Source: a virus. Taken from it: a stretch of DNA of 64,000 bases. This document shows, in pieces, positions 4,386 to 62,079 of this stretch. Positions within the stretch are counted from its first letter, which is position 1. Each line of letters begins with the position of its first letter. The notes below the pieces were generated by a model. That model had not been told where the DNA came from, made no database searches, and worked only from the letters and a program-made list of their open reading frames with translations. The stretch lies in the IMG/VR virus record IMGVR_UViG_3300042868_003731, positions 62,001 to 126,000 of that record; one strand, 5' to 3'. The translations under genes were made by a program, and so were the position numbers.

Positions 4386-4691
4386 TTAAGGCATATACAA
4401 ACCTTCGATTTCCTGATCAACAATCATCTCAGGCATATCGTCGATCCATACATCGATGTCAATCTTATGAACATGATGCATAAAGTGACGTTTAGGACGA
4501 AGACCAGTACCAAAGCAATTCTCTGCACCGATCACTCGACCGATTGTCATCTTTGGATCATCCATGTGTTGGGTTCCACGAGCAGATACACAGTAGACCT
4601 TATGTCCACGGTTCAACGCTTCTTGTGCGAACCAATTCCACAGAAGAGGATCTTTGGTGTAAGTATCATCATAGTCGATTGAGATGTTCAT
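4386..4691 (-). CDS. HAD-like phosphatase, small
   Basis: I chose the ATG at 4691 because of its AAAGGAG site; a longer frame to 4733 has none. The 101-residue product opens with the HAD motif I signature DYDDTYT (residues 5-11, DxDxT pattern) and later has CVSARGTQH (a motif II-like Ser with following Arg) and WIDDMPE (a motif IV-like acidic pair). This fits a minimal HAD hydrolase of the kind phages use on nucleotides or sugar phosphates. The substrate is unknown. The gene stops 1 bp before tRNA-Arg(ACG). Confidence 0.75.
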   Translation of the reverse strand: MNISIDYDDTYTKDPLLWNWFAQEALNRGHKVYCVSARGTQHMDDPKMTIGRVIGAENCFGTGLRPKRHFMHHVHKIDIDVWIDDMPEMIVDQEIEGLYMP

Positions 4692-4746
4692 AGCTGTCTC
4701 CTTTACACCATCATAGTCTAAACTGTTCCACATGTCAACCTCTAAA

Positions 4747-5564: not shown

Positions 5565-5717
5565 TTATTGATAATTGGCTTTGATTTCAAAGTGGATTGG
5601 ATTTTTGTTACTACCTGACATCAAACGAGCAACTTCGATTTTATGTCGAAACGCAGGGTCTTCCATAAGAATTTCAATAATTGCTTCTAGTTTTGCCAAT
5701 CTTTCTTCTACAGTCAT
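5565..5717 (-). CDS. Small helical protein (50 aa), coupled to SGNH gene
   Basis: The ATG at 5717 overlaps the stop of the SGNH-hydrolase gene by 4 bp (ATGA). The product starts MTVEERLAKLEAIIEILMED and is predicted to be largely helical, possibly a short coiled coil. It stops 1 bp before tRNA-Lys(CTT). No family recognised. Confidence 0.6.
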   Translation of the reverse strand: MTVEERLAKLEAIIEILMEDPAFRHKIEVARLMSGSNKNPIHFEIKANYQ

Positions 5718-6106
5718 TTAAATACCTTTGCTAGTGCTTCATAGCTTTTTGTAGTAGGGTGAACACCATCTTTGCTTAACGGCAGTTGTCTAATATCAGC
5801 AACTTTATCGTTATGAATACTTGCAATAGTTAGTATATTGCTTCTCGCTTCGTCATTGTTAGCTGGCAATATCCAAAGCACAGTGCCTTTAATTTCGCTA
5901 CGTAAGTTATACAACACAGTATATTGATTGCTCATACCTAGATCGTTACTACCAAGGCTAATCACTGTTAACTTCGACTCAGGCAATGCATAAGTCTTAA
6001 CATAGTTACGACTGTTAATACCTACCTTAGCTTCTACTACACAATCCAGTCTATATTGCCCTATTCCTACTGCAATACTATCACCAATGATTAAACACTC
6101 TAACAT
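5714..6106 (-). CDS. SGNH/GDSL-type hydrolase
   Basis: A 130-residue esterase/lipase-fold protein. Block I is IIGDSIAVG with the catalytic Ser9, block III is SLGSND (about 50-55, oxyanion Asn), and block V is KDGVHPT (about 111-117) supplying the Asp-His pair. It is shorter than most SGNH enzymes (about 180-200), so a minimal version. An AGGAG site precedes the ATG. There is no signal peptide, so it acts in the cytoplasm or on a virion. Substrate unknown: an acyl or acetyl ester on a glycan or a small molecule would fit. It sits inside the tRNA cluster. Confidence 0.85.
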   Translation of the reverse strand: MLECLIIGDSIAVGIGQYRLDCVVEAKVGINSRNYVKTYALPESKLTVISLGSNDLGMSNQYTVLYNLRSEIKGTVLWILPANNDEARSNILTIASIHNDKVADIRQLPLSKDGVHPTTKSYEALAKVFK

Positions 6107-6667: not shown

Positions 6668-6773
6668 ACTCTGTTTTCAACTAGGGTCGTCATCCATGAC
6701 TATCTGCTGCAGCAACCCGGGCCCGCGAAGCCCAGCACGGAATCGAACCGCGAACCCTAGTTGAAAACAGAGT
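6668..6773 (-). ncRNA. Cloverleaf-like RNA element closed by a 20-bp inverted repeat
   Basis: Positions 6668-6687 and 6754-6773 are perfect inverted repeats (20 bp). Between them, read on the minus strand, come a canonical T-arm (CGCGG-TTCGATT-CCGTG), then directly a 7-bp acceptor-like helix CTGGGCT/GGCCCGG capped by 5 nt, then a short D-arm-like hairpin TTGC-TGCA-GCAG and a hairpin GTCA-TGGA-TGAC. The order (T-arm, acceptor, D-arm, with the anticodon stem as closing helix) is that of a circularly permuted tRNA. The left arm can alternatively pair with an upstream segment near 6774-6790. Function unknown; the structure is read by eye. Confidence 0.55.
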
Positions 6774-7285: not shown

Positions 7286-7318
7286 CAAAAAAGTTGAGTT
7301 ATTTCAAATTATTTTACA

Positions 7319-7417
7319 GGATCGCTTTTTATTTTGCCCAGGAATCGAACCCGGAACTCTTTCTTAGAAGGAAAGTGTGCTACCGTTGCACTAGCTAATT
7401 TTTTGCTGCAACGATCC
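7319..7417 (-). ncRNA. Atypical tRNA-like RNA, anticodon TCT (Arg)
   Basis: The end helix is GGATCGT/GCGATCC. Inside are a D-arm GTGC-AACGGTA-GCAC, an anticodon arm CTTTC-CTTCTAA-GAAAG and a T-arm CCGGG-TTCGATT-CCTGG. About 19 nt (starting TGCAGCA plus an A-run) separate the end helix from the D-arm, and about 12 A-rich nt follow the T-arm. No CCA is encoded. It is a tRNA with an internal loop in its acceptor stem, or a tRNA mimic. It lies 34 nt beyond the stop of the Ro-like gene. Confidence 0.65.
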
Positions 7418-7451
7418 AAATTGAGGAAGTTAGGCCCGAAGGCCTAACCGA

Positions 7452-8879
7452 TTAGTAGGCATAACGATCGCTCATCAGAGTCTTCAACATAACATTGTAT
7501 GGAGTAAACTCCTCGAGGTCGTTTGCGAGAACATGCTTCATGATGGAAGGAGAGAAACCAGAAACATGCGCAGTACCGTTCTTGTCGAACTTAACTGGAG
7601 TGTTACCGTTTTCCTTACCGTACATGGACAGGTTCCAAAAGACGATCTTTGGAACATCGTAGCCTGCTTCCTTGTACTTACGCTTGATCATCTGCATTGC
7701 AGAGTCATCGTAGCGAGTGCAAGCATCGAACTGCATGTCCGAAAGGATGAGCAGCATGTCAGGCATATCTTCCTGAGACACATTGCCCTTAACAGCGATC
7801 TTGAGGATCTCATCGAATGCTGCGTGCAGGTTGGTGTTCATTTCCCAGTGAGCTTTTGTCATCTGAGTCATCTTCTGAGACAGAGTACCTTTCAGGTGTT
7901 CCATCTTAGGCTTACCAGAGAAGGTCAGGAACAGATCCTTGAAGTCTCCGGTGTTCTTGCTAGCGCAATAAAGGCCAAGAGAAACAGCAATGTCGATTGG
8001 CTGCAGTTGGCTGTAGGTGTACCACAGCGAACCCATCGAGCCGGAGACGTCGACCATAGGCAGAACCTTTGCATCGCCGATGTAGTTAGGCATAGCCTTC
8101 CACTGTTCATCAGCAACAGCCGCATTACCCTTCACGACAGACTTCACAACATCATACGGATAAACCGCAGAAGCGTTGATCTTGACTTTAGGATCTGAAC
8201 GCTCAGCAACAGGCTTCTTCAGTTCCGCAATGTAAGCAGAGTAGGACTCTTTTGCATTACGACCGAAAGCTTTCTGATAACGAGCAGACGCGACAGAAGG
8301 AACGTGCGAGAAGTTGATAGCTTCCCATTCCTTAGCACACATCTGAGTCTCAACGACATTGGTCAAACCGACAATGAGCTTACGGTATGCCTTAGGAGAC
8401 AGACCGAGGTATCGAGTCAGTTCGACTGCGACCGGACCTTTACGTGGCATCCACTTTGCTGCCAGACCATTCTTTGCTTCAAGAGCCTCTGCAATCAGAG
8501 CGAAAGCCTGATTGCGGTTGATCGGGTTCTTGTAGGCAAAGAGGTCATCCCAACGACCAAGTGCTGGGATTTTGTGCATCAGCTTTCCGGCAAGAGTTGG
8601 GTCGGTAGCCTCTAGCGCAGAGAGTAGATTACGGAAGGTAGCACGTTCGCCTGCGCCCTCACGAATGTCACGAGCCCACTGCAGCATACGCAGAGTAAGA
8701 TCGGCATTCTCTACGAGAGAAGCGGTGAATTGCTTGGTGATATCAGTACCACGAGCGGAACCGATAAGACCGAATAGATCCAGAACTGGCGACTGTGAAG
8801 TAGCACGAGCCTTCATACCATTCGCGGTACGAGCGACTGCTTTGTTCTTGGATTTCTGAACTGCATTAACGAATGACAT
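7452..8879 (-). CDS. Ro60-like (TROVE/DUF2828-type) RNA-binding protein with vWA domain
   Basis: A 475-residue protein. The N-terminal part (about 25-250) is helical in the style of the HEAT-like ring of Ro60/DUF2828 proteins, with GRWDDL, AKWMPRKG and KAYRKL segments. The C-terminal part is a von Willebrand A domain with a complete MIDAS: DVSGSM (Asp277, Ser279, Ser281), Thr349 and LSDMQFD (Asp381). Ro60 proteins bind misfolded RNAs and Y RNAs, and bacterial Rsr works with Y RNAs that carry a tRNA-like module. Here the gene is flanked on both sides by unusual tRNA-like RNAs, so a Ro-Y-RNA-like unit is inferred. The ATG at 8879 has a GAAAGGAAT site. The likely promoter is at 9108-9136, beyond the two upstream tRNA-like RNAs. 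Assignment to TROVE rather than the related DUF2828 is uncertain. Confidence 0.8.
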   Translation of the reverse strand: MSFVNAVQKSKNKAVARTANGMKARATSQSPVLDLFGLIGSARGTDITKQFTASLVENADLTLRMLQWARDIREGAGERATFRNLLSALEATDPTLAGKLMHKIPALGRWDDLFAYKNPINRNQAFALIAEALEAKNGLAAKWMPRKGPVAVELTRYLGLSPKAYRKLIVGLTNVVETQMCAKEWEAINFSHVPSVASARYQKAFGRNAKESYSAYIAELKKPVAERSDPKVKINASAVYPYDVVKSVVKGNAAVADEQWKAMPNYIGDAKVLPMVDVSGSMGSLWYTYSQLQPIDIAVSLGLYCASKNTGDFKDLFLTFSGKPKMEHLKGTLSQKMTQMTKAHWEMNTNLHAAFDEILKIAVKGNVSQEDMPDMLLILSDMQFDACTRYDDSAMQMIKRKYKEAGYDVPKIVFWNLSMYGKENGNTPVKFDKNGTAHVSGFSPSIMKHVLANDLEEFTPYNVMLKTLMSDRYAY

Positions 8880-8894
8880 AGTGTATTCCTTTCA

Positions 8895-8981
8895 GGTTGG
8901 ATTTACGGATTAGAACCGTTAAGTTTGTTTATAAGACAAATTGGGAACCATTCCCGGTTTTATTTTTTGCTGAAACCAACC
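8895..8981 (-). ncRNA. Atypical tRNA-like RNA, anticodon TAT (Ile)
   Basis: End helix GGTTGG/CCAACC (extendable by A-T and T-G outside), followed by TTTCAGCA and an A-run, a small D-arm GGGA-ATGGT-TCCC, anticodon arm TTTGT-CTTATAA-ACAAA, and T-arm ACGG-TTCTAAT-CCGT. No CCA is encoded. It ends 15 nt before the Ro-like gene ATG. Confidence 0.6.
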
Positions 8982-9005
8982 TATGGTTTCATAGTTTAAT
9001 AGTCA

Positions 9006-9079
9006 GGATCGCGCCTTGCGGCTTTCCTTTTGATTACAAGTCAAATGCTCTAATGAGCTTTAAGATGCTGTAACGATCC
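9006..9079 (-). ncRNA. Atypical tRNA-like RNA, anticodon TGT (Thr)
   Basis: End helix GGATCGT/GCGATCC (7 bp), then TACAGCA, a D-arm with only 4 loop bases (GCTC-ATTA-GAGC), anticodon arm TTTGA-CTTGTAA-TCAAA, and in place of the T-arm a hairpin GCC-GCAA-GGC with a GNRA tetraloop. No CCA is encoded. The length (74 nt) is tRNA-like but both elbow loops are reduced. Confidence 0.6.
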
Positions 9080-9107
9080 TATATTGCTTCGTTCACATCG
9101 TAAATAC

Positions 9108-9136
9108 AGTATAAACTGATTCTCTACAGATGTAAA
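9108..9136 (-). promoter_or_regulatory. Sigma70-like promoter (AGAATCAG spacer)
   Basis: Minus strand TTTACA, 17-bp spacer with GAGAATCAG, TATACT. It reads into the tRNA-like RNAs at 9006-9079 and 8895-8981 and then the Ro-like gene, suggesting one transcript. Confidence 0.7.
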
Positions 9137-9451: not shown

Positions 9452-9459
9452 TATTTATA
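9452..9459 (-). promoter_or_regulatory. T4-type late promoter TATAAATA
   Basis: Exact box on the minus strand overlapping the stop of the adhesin gene, 25 bp before the gene starting at 9427. Confidence 0.6.
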
Positions 9460-10435
9460 CTTCATAAACTATATAGACAACACCATTGCCACCGCGGCCA
9501 GATGTAATAGCAGATTCAGCACATGCACCACCGCTTCCACCACCGTATGTTACAGCTGCCGAACCAGCACCCCTAACTCCATCTGATGCATTAAAATCTG
9601 TAACTGACGATCCTAAAAATGATTGAGACCTATTGTTAGCGTAAGTTGCAACCGCAGGATAAGAGCCATACAACGAAACTTTTATGCCAGCAGTTATAGA
9701 GTCTGTAGTAGAACTCGCCGCAGTTCCACTGTGAGCACTTAAAAATCTTGGTGCACCACCACCAGCCGCAGATGTACGTGGGTTGCTTCCACTTACGCTA
9801 AATCCTCCACCAGCGCCACCAGTAAGATTTGATTGATTTCCGCCAGAAGCAGAGCCCCCGGCCCCGCCTACTCCAGTCACTGCAGTACTCCCACCGTTTG
9901 TACTCTGAGCACCTTGACCACCTCCACCACCAGCAGCAGACATATTTAAACTAAATCCTACAAAACTAGATGCAGTACCAGCGTTTCCGCTTATAGCTCT
10001 TTGCTCAGCCGTCACCCCAACTCCAGCTCCACCGGTTCCAACAGTAACAGTAGCAGAGCCAGTAGTTGTTCCTGCTATGATACTATATGACATACCTCCT
10101 GCGCCTCCACCTCCACCGCCAGCAACACCGTCCGTGTTACCATAAGTACCAACGTTTCTTGCAGGCCAACCCATTCCGCCGGAACCACCAGCGCCGACGA
10201 CGAATATGTGTATGAATCTTGCTAGATTCTTTCTAGGAGTCCAAGTCCTATTACTAGTGATCCTGTCATATACTAGAAAAGTTTTACCATAAAAGTCATT
10301 GATAGATATCTGACCGCTTGCAGGGATCCCACTTGCTAAACCATAATATTCATTCAAAGAAATTGGAGTTGCGCCACCAAATTCGGTTTGTATCTCCAAT
10401 AGATTTAGAGGACTTCCGCTTGATTTAATCGTCAT
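9455..10435 (-). CDS. Glycine-rich tail-tip adhesin, copy 2
   Basis: A 326-residue protein. The N-terminus carries a motif seen in phage tail and fibre proteins (SPLNLLEIQTEFGG, then ISLNEYYG and ISINDFYGK, residues about 7-50). Residues about 75-326 are extremely Gly/Ala/Ser/Thr-rich with repeated GGxGG and AGGGGG blocks. These resemble the polyglycine-sandwich domains of receptor-binding adhesins at the tips of T4-type fibres; the specificity residues would lie in the loops between Gly blocks. It is a paralogue of the gene at 11002-11982 (same length, many identical blocks). Its ATG overlaps the stop of the 185-aa gene (ATGA). Confidence 0.75.
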   Translation of the reverse strand: MTIKSSGSPLNLLEIQTEFGGATPISLNEYYGLASGIPASGQISINDFYGKTFLVYDRITSNRTWTPRKNLARFIHIFVVGAGGSGGMGWPARNVGTYGNTDGVAGGGGGGAGGMSYSIIAGTTTGSATVTVGTGGAGVGVTAEQRAISGNAGTASSFVGFSLNMSAAGGGGGQGAQSTNGGSTAVTGVGGAGGSASGGNQSNLTGGAGGGFSVSGSNPRTSAAGGGAPRFLSAHSGTAASSTTDSITAGIKVSLYGSYPAVATYANNRSQSFLGSSVTDFNASDGVRGAGSAAVTYGGGSGGACAESAITSGRGGNGVVYIVYEV

Positions 10436-11001: not shown

Positions 11002-11982
11002 TTATACCTCATACACGATTATGATAACCCCATTGCCACCGCGGCCAGACCTAACTGCAGCTTCTGCTGCCACGCCACCGCTTCCAGCGCCATATGTTAC
11101 AGCTGCCGAACCAGCACCTCTAACTCCAGCTGATGCATTAAAATCTGTGATAGATGATCCTAAGAATGGTTGCGATCTACCGGCTGCATAAGCTGCGACT
11201 GCTGGGTATGCGCCGTATGACGAAACGCTAATGCCCGGCGTTGTAGCGTCTGTTGTGGAATTTGTAGCCGTGCCGTTATTAGCAGTTAAAAATCTCGGTG
11301 CACCACCACCAGCCGCAGATGTACGTGGGTTGCTTCCACTTACGCTAAATCCACCGCCAGAGCCACCTGTGAGGTTTGATTGATTACCGCCGGATGCAGA
11401 TCCGCCGGTTCCGCCTACACGAGTCAGGCTAGTATTCCCGCCGTCTGTGTTCTGTCCGCCCGGTCCACCACCTCCACCGCCCGCGGACATATTTAAACCT
11501 AGTCCTATAAAACTGGATGCCGTGCCGGCATTTCCGTTTACGGCACTTCTTTCACCAGTAACGCCAACTCCAGTACCACCGGTTCCAACAGTAACAGTAG
11601 CAGAACCAGTAGTTGTCCCTGTTATGCGACTATACGCAACTCCACCGGCTCCGCCGCCGCTTCCACCTGCGACACCGTCAGTATTACCAAAAAAACCTAC
11701 GTTTCTTGCAGGCCAAGCCATTCCGCCGGAACCACCAGCACCAACAACAAATATGTGTATGAATCTTGCTAAGTTTGGTCTTGGAGACCATGTTCCAGAA
11801 GATGTGATCCTATCAATTATTAGAAAAGTTTTACCATAAAAGGTAGACATAGGTATCGCGCCAGATGATGGTATTCCACTTGCTAAACCATAGTACTCAG
11901 AAAAGCTAATCGGCGCCGGATCGCCAAATTCTGTCTGTATCTCTGTCGTAGTTAGAGGAGTTCCGCTTGGTTTAACTGGCAC
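11002..11982 (-). CDS. Glycine-rich tail-tip adhesin, copy 1
   Basis: Paralogue of the gene at 9455-10435 with the same 326-residue length and layout: N-terminal IQTEFGD, ISFSEYYG and IPMSTFYGK attachment motifs, then a long Gly-rich region. Several stretches of more than 50 bp are identical in DNA between the copies (for example around 9751-9805 and 11301-11355), separated by diverged Gly-block loops. A late box TATAAATA lies 38 bp upstream. It likely binds the host surface at the tip of a tail fibre. Confidence 0.75.
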   Translation of the reverse strand: MPVKPSGTPLTTTEIQTEFGDPAPISFSEYYGLASGIPSSGAIPMSTFYGKTFLIIDRITSSGTWSPRPNLARFIHIFVVGAGGSGGMAWPARNVGFFGNTDGVAGGSGGGAGGVAYSRITGTTTGSATVTVGTGGTGVGVTGERSAVNGNAGTASSFIGLGLNMSAGGGGGGPGGQNTDGGNTSLTRVGGTGGSASGGNQSNLTGGSGGGFSVSGSNPRTSAAGGGAPRFLTANNGTATNSTTDATTPGISVSSYGAYPAVAAYAAGRSQPFLGSSITDFNASAGVRGAGSAAVTYGAGSGGVAAEAAVRSGRGGNGVIIIVYEV

Positions 11983-26052: not shown

Positions 26053-26552
26053 TGGGTACTCAAGCAGATAGACAACTCGGCGTTGACATCGAGCATCTTA
26101 TCGTAGAATTTTTCTCTAAGCGAGGCATCACGGCTAAACTTTCTAAAGATCCGTTCGACGCTGATAAAGATTTGATTCTTACCGTGAACGGTGAAGACCA
26201 TTCTCTAGAGAATAAGTTGGAAACGCGTTTTCATATGTTCAATAGTTTTACAGTTCCGATCTCATCAAATGAAAAAGCGAGTGGCATCCATAGCAATCAG
26301 CTAAGCAAGTGTATGAATGTCGACATTCTTATCTTTTGTCAACGCCCAGAGCCTGATGATCCAGTCCTTAGGATTTACAGTGCCCCTCCTCTCGGTAAAA
26401 GAAATTTTGTAATCAGACAAAATACTCGTGATAAGCGATACGTTGCTCACTTTCCTATTGACAAAATGACTCTTATTGGTACAATTACTGATATGAGCAT
26501 CGTTCAAAAATATATGAGACATGGAGTAATGGAATATGCAAAGAGTTTTTAA
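26052..26552 (+). CDS. Putative PD-(D/E)XK-type nuclease
   Basis: A 166-residue protein with DPFDADKDLILTVNGEDHSLENKLE (about 38-62). The Asp followed by a strand and ExK (ENKLE) fits the catalytic pattern of the restriction-endonuclease fold. Other parts are unremarkable. Position next to DNA-modifying genes would suit a nuclease that spares modified phage DNA, but that is inference. Confidence 0.45.
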   Translation: MGTQADRQLGVDIEHLIVEFFSKRGITAKLSKDPFDADKDLILTVNGEDHSLENKLETRFHMFNSFTVPISSNEKASGIHSNQLSKCMNVDILIFCQRPEPDDPVLRIYSAPPLGKRNFVIRQNTRDKRYVAHFPIDKMTLIGTITDMSIVQKYMRHGVMEYAKSF

Positions 26553-27198
26553 TATTCGCAATCAACTCATTCAAAAGTATCGTGATCAAGACTTTGTGAC
26601 TGATAAGACCGGTGTTAAAACCATCGAGCTTATCGGACAATCCTTTATCGCTGATGAGGATTGGATCATTCGTAAACCAAACTACGAATACATCGAACGT
26701 GAACTCGAATGGTACGAGTCGCAGTCTCTGTATGTTGAAGATATTCCTGGTGAGACTCCTGCGATCTGGAAAAATGTTGCTTCAAAACATGGTCGTATCA
26801 ATTCAAACTATGGTCATCTCATTTGGTCTGAAAAGAACGGTTTTCAGTATATGAACGTTCTTACTGAACTTTTGAATAACCCTAACAGCCGCCGTGCTGT
26901 CATGATCTACAATCGTCCTTCCATGCATACTGACTATTACGAAGACGATATGTCAGATTTCATCTGCACCTATGCAAACACTTTTATGATCCGTGACGGT
27001 AAACTCATCAGCCACTATCTGATGCGTTCGAACGACGCAGTGTTCGGTTATGACAACGATGTTCACTGGGCAATGCATGTTCAAAAGAAACTTGCTGCGG
27101 ACCTTAGAGTTGGAGTCGGTGATCTCATCTGGACTGCAACGAACCTGCATGTATACGAACGCCACTTCAAGTTCATCGAGGAGTTGATGGATGCGTGA
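26536..27198 (+). CDS. Thymidylate synthase-family enzyme, probable dCMP hydroxymethylase type
   Basis: A 220-residue ThyA-fold enzyme. NSRRAVMIYNRP (about 117-128) supplies the phosphate-binding Arg pair, Cys144 in FICTY aligns with the catalytic Cys, RSNDAVFGYDND (164-175) aligns with the RSxD...GLPFN block, and LHVYERH near the end matches DxHxY. The residue equivalent to ThyA Asn177, which fixes dUMP, is Asp175 here; in T4 gp42 an Asp at this place gives dCMP specificity. It therefore probably makes 5-hydroxymethyl-dCMP. dCMP deaminase, kinase and glycosyltransferase genes are nearby. Its ATG is inside the preceding gene with a GGAG site. Confidence 0.75.
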   Translation: MQRVFNIRNQLIQKYRDQDFVTDKTGVKTIELIGQSFIADEDWIIRKPNYEYIERELEWYESQSLYVEDIPGETPAIWKNVASKHGRINSNYGHLIWSEKNGFQYMNVLTELLNNPNSRRAVMIYNRPSMHTDYYEDDMSDFICTYANTFMIRDGKLISHYLMRSNDAVFGYDNDVHWAMHVQKKLAADLRVGVGDLIWTATNLHVYERHFKFIEELMDA

Positions 27199-61906: not shown

Positions 61907-62079
61907 TAAGAGACGAAAGATCGAGAGCACTTATCAACGATGACCTGGCTGCTCTAAATAAATACAAAGTAGACAGGGATCGAGTGAGAAAGATAGAACA
62001 AATCTATAAAGAGTTACCAGAGATAAGAAGAGTTCTTTCTTCCTTATGTGAAAGATTAGACAAGATAGAGAGCACATAA
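61903..62079 (+). CDS. Small coiled-coil protein (58 aa)
   Basis: ATG at 61903 overlaps the stop of the large gene (ATGA). The product is charged and helical (DDLAALNKYKVDRDRVRKIEQ) and could form a short coiled coil. It ends 2 bp before the fibre gene. Possibly a fibre chaperone or linker; inferred from position only. Confidence 0.65.
   Translation: MIRDERSRALINDDLAALNKYKVDRDRVRKIEQIYKELPEIRRVLSSLCERLDKIEST

Follow-up and report, generated by a model that had tools for sequence, protein, structure and literature searches.

In a 64,000-nucleotide stretch of DNA (the window; positions 62001 to 126000, G000:C1:62001-126000, of the 218-kb T4-like virus record IMGVR_UViG_3300042868_003731), a gene for a Ro-like protein lies between small structured RNAs that carry features of transfer RNA (tRNA). 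The open reading frame (ORF; 7452-8879, minus strand) encodes 475 amino acids, predicted to form a HEAT-repeat ring and a von Willebrand factor A (vWA) domain with the metal ion-dependent adhesion site (MIDAS) motif DVSGSM. An earlier note on this DNA had described a TROVE/DUF2828-type protein at this position, flanked by three RNAs on the same strand with tRNA anticodon arms and abnormal ends. Both elements are present, and the ends of the RNAs are refined to 9080-9005 (RNA C), 8982-8894 (RNA B), and about 7418-7318 (RNA A).

The protein and RNAs of the locus

The 475-residue protein matches DUF2828 and DUF7788 in Pfam and phrog_850 ("RNA-binding protein") in PHROGs. Its relatives are encoded in 682 phage records, with identity always below 60%, and judged by these matches the Ro-like protein itself is common among phages. 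An AlphaFold2 model built with 36 input sequences has a predicted local distance difference test (pLDDT) score of 85.4, and its best eight structure matches in the PDB are Ro/TROVE proteins only, with E values from 2e-9 to 6e-8 and template modeling (TM) scores of 0.49 to 0.61 (entries among them are 2i91, 1yvr, 1yvp, 9kop, 2nvo, 9nfa, and 9nf8). These include 2i91 (Ro60 with misfolded RNA; E value of 2.1e-9, TM score of 0.61), 1yvp (a complex of Ro with RNAs), and 2nvo (Deinococcus Rsr); a weaker earlier model from 11 sequences (pLDDT of 71) matched the TROVE domain of 9kop. With its HEAT-repeat ring and vWA domain, the modeled protein is of the Ro60/Rsr type in fold, and D276, S278, and S280 of the MIDAS signature (DxSxS) are invariant across the 36 sequences. 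The Ro relationship is invisible from sequence alone; Pfam gives only the two DUF domains and no TROVE domain, phmmer against the PDB sequences does not find a Ro chain, and the best TROVE chain in a profile search of the PDB has a nonsignificant E value of 0.78.

RNAs A, B, and C fold as multiloops, each closed by one helix, and share a layout that the earlier note had overlooked: GG(A/U)UCG or GGUUGG, 3 nucleotides, CAGCA, an interior, the complementary strand, and then U-G. RNA C (9005-9080, minus strand; AGGATCG-UUA-CAGCA ... CGAUCCU-G; fold z of -3.4) is a strict frame of this kind. Its interior holds a D-arm-like hairpin, an anticodon arm (UUUGA-CUUGUAA-UCAAA, with UGU), and a small GCAA-loop hairpin at the place of the T arm, and it is kept 5' of the Ro gene in related contigs. 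RNA B (8894-8982, minus strand; AGGUUGG-UUU-CAGCA ... CCAACCU-G) ends 14 nucleotides before the Ro start codon and contains a hairpin, an anticodon arm (CUUAUAA), and a T arm. RNA A (about 7318-7418, minus strand; GGAUCG-UUG-CAGCA ... CGAUCC-UG), in which the closing helix P1 has 6 bp and an outermost U.U, surrounds a linear tRNA-Arg(UCU)-like body (ARAGORN and Rfam, 7330-7400, 49.6 bits) with a poor or broken acceptor stem and without CCA.

The covariance search proposed in the earlier note gave a tRNA match for RNA A and, near RNA C, a single weak one (24.6 bits, 8976-9067) that overruns the end of the RNA; neither Rfam nor ARAGORN gave a tRNA match to RNA B, and the Rfam YrlA/Y RNA models matched none of the three. 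The YrlA and tRNA models of Rfam were left without a qualifying match to RNA B or C. None of the RNAs has the 7-bp acceptor stem, the CCA, and the full cloverleaf score of an ordinary tRNA, nor is any of them an ordinary tRNA with an insertion, an outcome that would have spoken against the note's interpretation.

A single promoter had been suggested for the whole group. A promoter-like site (TTTACA-17-TATACT, 9108-9136, minus strand) does lie upstream of RNA C and matches 10 of 12 consensus positions, but it is weak evidence because the scan finds about as many sites as in shuffled sequences. In addition, a single transcript is not certain because a strong hairpin, also overlooked before, separates the gene from RNA A (GTTAGGCC-UUCG-GGCCTAAC, 7428-7449, minus strand, just 3' of the Ro stop codon). 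It may be a terminator or a processing site; a similar sequence, GTTAGGCCTTCGGGCCTAGC, is found 3' of the Ro gene at locus L009.

A constant frame beside Ro genes

In related contigs, the frame around the Ro gene is constant and the interior varies. The frame consists of a 7-bp P1 starting with A/U-G-G, exactly 3 nucleotides, CAGCA, the variable interior, the 3' strand of P1 (P1'), and then G; in its fuller form, this handle comprises the 7-bp P1, the 3-nucleotide spacer, CAGCA(A), an A-rich 3' strand, and the trailing G. Of 113 distinct loci, 107 have it no more than 1.5 kb from the Ro gene, a recurrence that excludes chance, and at 76 of the 113 a leader frame ends 12 to 54 nucleotides before the Ro start codon. 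The arrangement is not special to this phage, nor do related phages generally carry the protein far from such RNAs. Phages with frames next to their Ro genes have as hosts Listeria, Campylobacter, Mycobacterium, Enterococcus, Staphylococcus, Escherichia, Sinorhizobium, and cyanobacteria; some bacterial genome bins have such frames too. Isolated phages with framed RNAs are Listeria LP-048, Campylobacter F360, Mycobacterium Lolly9, Felix O1-like wV8, Sinorhizobium phiM12, Cronobacter S13, Citrobacter Ci1, Synechococcus ZZ01, Enterococcus ZJGS4 and VRE9_1, Staphylococcus CF9, and Klebsiella phi1_175008.

CAGCA alone is uninformative as a marker (39 ACAGCAA sites in the genome), and a search by maximal helix with a free spacer gave many coding false positives; the geometry was therefore fixed, and other spacers, shuffled cores, the antisense strand, and swapped arms served as controls. 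Frames with P1 and CAGCA numbered 43 on the gene strand, compared with 6 to 17 for nine permuted 5-mers and 13, near background, on the antisense strand. When the spacer between P1 and CAGCA was varied, 86 frames were found at 3 nucleotides, 24 to 36 at 0 to 1 and 5 to 10, and 20 on the antisense strand; the counts at 2 and 4 nucleotides (55 and 57) are raised, as expected from helices sliding by one base. Within 1.5 kb of the gene at 60 viral loci collected by protein similarity, there are 147 frames at spacer 3 versus 3 to 7 at spacers 0, 1, and 5 to 9, and 57 of the 60 loci have one. The corresponding numbers for 14 bacterial genome-bin loci, many of which may contain phage contigs, are 17 versus 0 to 3, with frames present in 11. 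The tRNA regions of T4 and T5, phages for which we know of no Ro gene, have no excess of frames at spacer 3, and no frame is found in the stable RNAs of T4 (RNA C/D) and T5 (RNA I-IV).

Searching from the RNA side only, the 15-mer AGGATCGTTACAGCA led to 48 contigs, about 24 with a matching P1' (counted by hand from listings) and 24 without. A Ro gene lies 140 to 600 nucleotides downstream in 20 of the former and in none of the latter, and L057, a P1'-matched contig without Ro, is probably a chance coding match. In a pairing-blind test, 74 of 104 leader arms find a partner in their own leader, whereas arms swapped between loci do so 3.5 times on average (maximum, 8). P1 covaries between loci: 29 distinct leader frames have double changes at 7 of 7 P1 pairs and 70 compensatory cells, compared with 18.5 after shuffling and at most 12 when slid, although these rows were preselected for pairing, and the weight rests on the spacer, locus-set, 15-mer, and arm-swap tests. 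The loci are phylogenetically related, although the usual demand for independence does not apply in the same way to the spacer and swap controls. A G follows P1' in 238 of 244 frames, which the scan did not require, and 235 frames begin with A or T.

The framed interiors comprise anticodon arms, linear tRNA-like folds, and circularly permuted tRNAs, often without CCA. An anticodon-arm-like hairpin is found in 92 of 272 distinct frames (shuffled interiors, 17.9; maximum, 26) and a T-loop in 50, with T before D in 20 by a strict rule; a looser listing gives about 28 permuted interiors. The downstream frame of relatives, at the position of RNA A, contains a circularly permuted tRNA, and in several downstream RNAs the order is anticodon arm, T arm, acceptor helix, and D arm, with ACCA kept on the acceptor in L009 and L008 and a short loop cap in L005 and L011. 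CCA is encoded by 144 of 150 ordinary tRNAs of the checked loci versus about one-third of the framed permuted RNAs (a hand count from listings), so charging is not a conserved property. In a second topology, the handle sits inside the anticodon arm of 13 linear tRNA-like genes, and P1 is closed by a G-first loop (GACA, GATA, GUAA, and the like) whose G corresponds to the trailing G of the open frames. This leading G was required in the 13-gene scan, the same tRNAs having first been noticed without that requirement. Because an inside-out hairpin scan alone showed no enrichment at spacer 3, such genes were counted only where D and T arms flanked the handle.

Further structured RNAs were observed in the same genome and in relatives. 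Another permuted-tRNA-like RNA (6668-6773, minus strand; fold z of -6.25) has a perfect 20-bp inverted repeat around a T arm, an acceptor-like helix (GGCCCGG/CTGGGCU), and small hairpins and is without the CAGCA handle after P1. The structured segment 7140-7235 (minus strand), between RNA A and tRNA-Cys, is closed by GAACTCGCAC/GTGCGAGGGTTC, and a similar sequence is present in L005 near 650-840. Four further frames lie upstream of the window in the tRNA region of the genome, on the same strand (G000:C1:54277-54195, 55796-55733, 57739-57550, and 58337-58274, all minus); one encloses a permuted tRNA with CCA, and two have a conserved CGCTAA...TTAGCG interior. Two longer frames recur beside Ro genes, of 150 to 165 nucleotides (AGGATCGg[ta]t..CAGCAacattcatatactatgaa...) and 190 to 260 nucleotides (AGGATGActaCAGCA...), with conserved interiors that are not obviously tRNA (examples relative to the Ro gene start are L119 -426, L126 -494, L165 -508, and similar). 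A related viral contig carries a permuted transfer-messenger RNA close to its Ro gene (L012 2661-3005; Rfam RF04321, 85 bits). Among the neighboring genes, small ORFs between the tRNAs (5714-6106 and 4386-4733, minus strand) have no PHROG hits or hits of unknown function only, one looking SGNH-esterase-like and one HAD-phosphatase-like by eye, and two 326-residue glycine-rich tail-fiber-like proteins (9455-10435 and 11002-11982, minus strand) look like recent tandem duplicates.

A proposed phage Ro ribonucleoprotein and its alternatives

We propose, with a probability of roughly 0.74, that the locus specifies a phage Ro ribonucleoprotein whose RNAs work like the YrlA Y RNAs, combining a Ro handle with a tRNA mimic. 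Relatives of the human Ro60 protein are carried by many bacterial viruses, and it is very probable that phages assemble Ro ribonucleoprotein particles of their own. The inference of such a Y-RNA-like particle, already drawn in the earlier note, gains support from the fold match to RNA-bound Ro60 and Rsr and from the recurrence of the arrangement at most related loci, and the detection of a Ro homologue in virions of Listeria phage CKA15 (PMC12282133) also counts in its favor. So do the fixed spacer, the P1 covariation, the trailing G, the excess of anticodon-arm-like hairpins, and the plan common to the frames and the Rfam YrlA model, which gives 37.7 bits on a mycobacteriophage frame. The locus would encode a Ro60-fold protein together with a family of small Y-like RNAs, the constant handle of which is most likely gripped by the Ro protein; we hold this role of the frame as the Ro-binding handle to be highly probable. 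The variable interior would display tRNA features (an anticodon arm, a T/D elbow, or a whole linear or circularly permuted tRNA), and the displayed mimic may recruit or absorb factors that act on tRNA. A leader copy of the frame could let Ro regulate its own mRNA, and autoregulation by Ro binding beside the Shine-Dalgarno site is plausible because the leader frame ends so close to the start codon at most loci.

As to use, the RNAs would most likely serve as decoys or adaptors against tRNA-cleaving host defenses or in RNA quality control, as proposed for YrlA. A Ro-held decoy or adaptor is favored because phages evade tRNA-cleaving defenses by using tRNAs (PMC11555353, PMC10264068) and because YrlA has been suggested by Wolin and colleagues as a possible inhibitor of an anticodon nuclease (PMC7790460); it is the likeliest single use, at somewhat less than even odds. 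More speculative, and to our mind doubtful, is the wider picture of a second, independent Ro ribonucleoprotein lineage in phages and some bacteria, whose own handle could be set into or around tRNA genes whatever the topology, circular permutation among them. One protein would then collect tRNA-mimic decoys against tRNA-targeting immunity, and part of the particle might be delivered in the virion.

Several observations weigh against the Ro ribonucleoprotein. The interiors, 34 to 243 nucleotides long, are so diverse that a single common function is not evident, and CCA and a good acceptor stem are retained in some framed permuted tRNAs, features that mimicry alone would not require. KVP40, Vibrio CZ01, Klebsiella fENko-Kae01, and Staphylococcus Alsa_4 have the protein and no clear frame within the few kilobases examined. 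The classical Ro-site consensus of Y RNAs is absent, no Rfam Y RNA family was matched, and YrlA (RF02553) gave no match to the window RNAs at its curated gathering threshold of 69 bits, the best score among relatives being 37.7 bits for a frame of mycobacteriophage Lolly9. The earlier note, which had seen no known Y-RNA Ro helix, was right about the classical consensus and for that reason missed a different, very tight one (P1, 3 nucleotides, CAGCA, trailing G); by its sequence, the frame has a consensus of its own, unlike the classical Y-RNA helix.

The alternative that survives best, though we consider it improbable, is that the handle is a small intron, spliced from the tRNAs in linear copies, whereas permuted copies would be a natural version of the permuted intron-exon design, yielding a circular pre-tRNA from which a functional tRNA is cut. 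Its strongest argument is that removal of the insert restores a perfect 5-bp anticodon stem (by hand in Synechococcus ZZ01, Cronobacter S13, Citrobacter Ci1, and two bacterial bins), with four insert-excised sequences called as Thr, Gly, Met, and Asn tRNAs; the retention of the acceptor stem and CCA in some permuted copies and the phage RNA ligase genes near Ro in Listeria LP-048 (RtcB) and Klebsiella fENko-Kae01 would also fit. However, the majority of frames are small RNAs whose tRNA content is an anticodon arm at most, and for the leader frame 5' of the Ro gene there is no exon to which it could be joined. Loss of CCA and U33 is frequent: U33 is gone from the two insert-bearing tRNAs in one clostridial bin (L193), and encoded CCA is absent from some insert-bearing tRNAs (phiAS5, Ci1, and L186). 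At the same locus, S13 and Ci1 have swapped tRNA identity and acceptor sequence while the handle is unchanged. The core falls short of the length of known self-splicing introns, and a bulge-helix-bulge site was not seen in the frame by eye, no dedicated search having been run.

The position of the leader frame at those 76 loci would also suit a chiefly cis-acting element through which Ro represses its own mRNA, the other copies being functionless duplicated Ro sites in decaying tRNA genes. This is slightly less probable again than an intron: loci have several more frames, up- and downstream, with compensatory P1 and organized interiors (anticodon arms and permuted tRNAs), and decay is not expected to keep the T arm, capped acceptor, and D arm together. 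That the RNAs are ordinary degenerate pseudogenes of the phage tRNA cluster, beside the Ro-like gene by accident, agrees with their place in or next to that cluster and with the tRNA-Arg score of RNA A, but it is refuted by the comparative data (common frame, fixed 3-nucleotide spacing, covariation, and Ro linkage across phages of many hosts) and has a negligible probability.

The framed RNAs beside phage Ro genes are a previously unrecognized small-RNA family, with one rigid handle and tRNA pieces that are often rearranged; no general RNA partner family of the phage Ro-like protein was found in Rfam or in the literature searched. The handle of 7 bp, 3 nucleotides, and CAGCA makes Ro RNA partners findable by sequence and accounts for tRNAs that phage genome annotations list as "pseudo" or that are overlong, and the question of phage Ro function becomes open to direct binding and deletion tests. 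In addition, the family provides circularly permuted tRNAs that occur naturally in phages, and its tRNA mimics form a natural collection with which tRNA-targeting defenses can be studied.

Comparison with known Ro, Y RNA, and permuted tRNA systems

Mycobacteriophages have an annotated Ro-like gene, as does this locus. The authors of the Listeria phage CKA15 study reported very abundant noncoding transcripts 5' of the Ro homologue, which they suggested may be Y RNAs, and cite Chen et al. 2014 for mycobacteriophage Y RNAs (PMC12282133); TROVE proteins that have a tRNA-like partner are also touched on, in general terms, by a survey of jumbo phages (PMC7824862). The common RNA frame, the permuted tRNAs, and a family crossing phages are not described with these proposals in the literature searched. 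The strongest CKA15 region (26,236-26,727) maps by distance to a ROOL RNA match in Listeria phage LP-048 and not to the frames just 5' of the gene, and it appears to be ROOL RNA rather than framed RNAs; three frames stand beside the Ro gene of CKA15. This LP-048 match (L026 1460-2011; 90 bits, just below gathering) corresponds by distance to the most abundant unexplained transcript of CKA15.

The permuted tRNA genes of red algae and archaea, like the framed RNAs, have the 3' half before the 5' half and sometimes an encoded CCA. Unlike them, many framed RNAs are without CCA, the P1/CAGCA frame and Ro linkage are shared, and no bulge-helix-bulge was seen by eye, without a dedicated search.

With the Ro60-Y RNA and Deinococcus Rsr-Yrn1-PNPase systems, the locus shares the fold of HEAT ring plus vWA domain (PDB 1yvp, 2i91, and 2nvo) and the placing of Ro beside small structured RNAs. 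The phage protein differs in being phage encoded and too distant for Pfam TROVE or PDB sequence searches, and we know of no PNPase tether for it, unlike in the Deinococcus system.

The closest likeness is to YrlA RNA, the partner of bacterial Rsr, which is also a small RNA beside a Ro gene and whose Rfam consensus places a circularly permuted tRNA mimic (T arm, capped acceptor, and D arm) within an outer closing stem. This plan of a Ro-side closing stem with a permuted tRNA-like module is found in many relatives, namely in the permuted interiors counted above (about 28); in the window, RNA A has a linear tRNA-like body, and RNAs B and C have linear partial ones. The consensus shape of YrlA is also that of a Ro stem joined at the anticodon stem of a tRNA body, as in the linear handle-bearing tRNAs. 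Unlike YrlA, which is without CAGCA at 3 nucleotides, the framed RNAs have a different handle sequence and many copies per locus, and among their interiors are bare anticodon arms as well as linear tRNAs and whole tRNAs with CCA.
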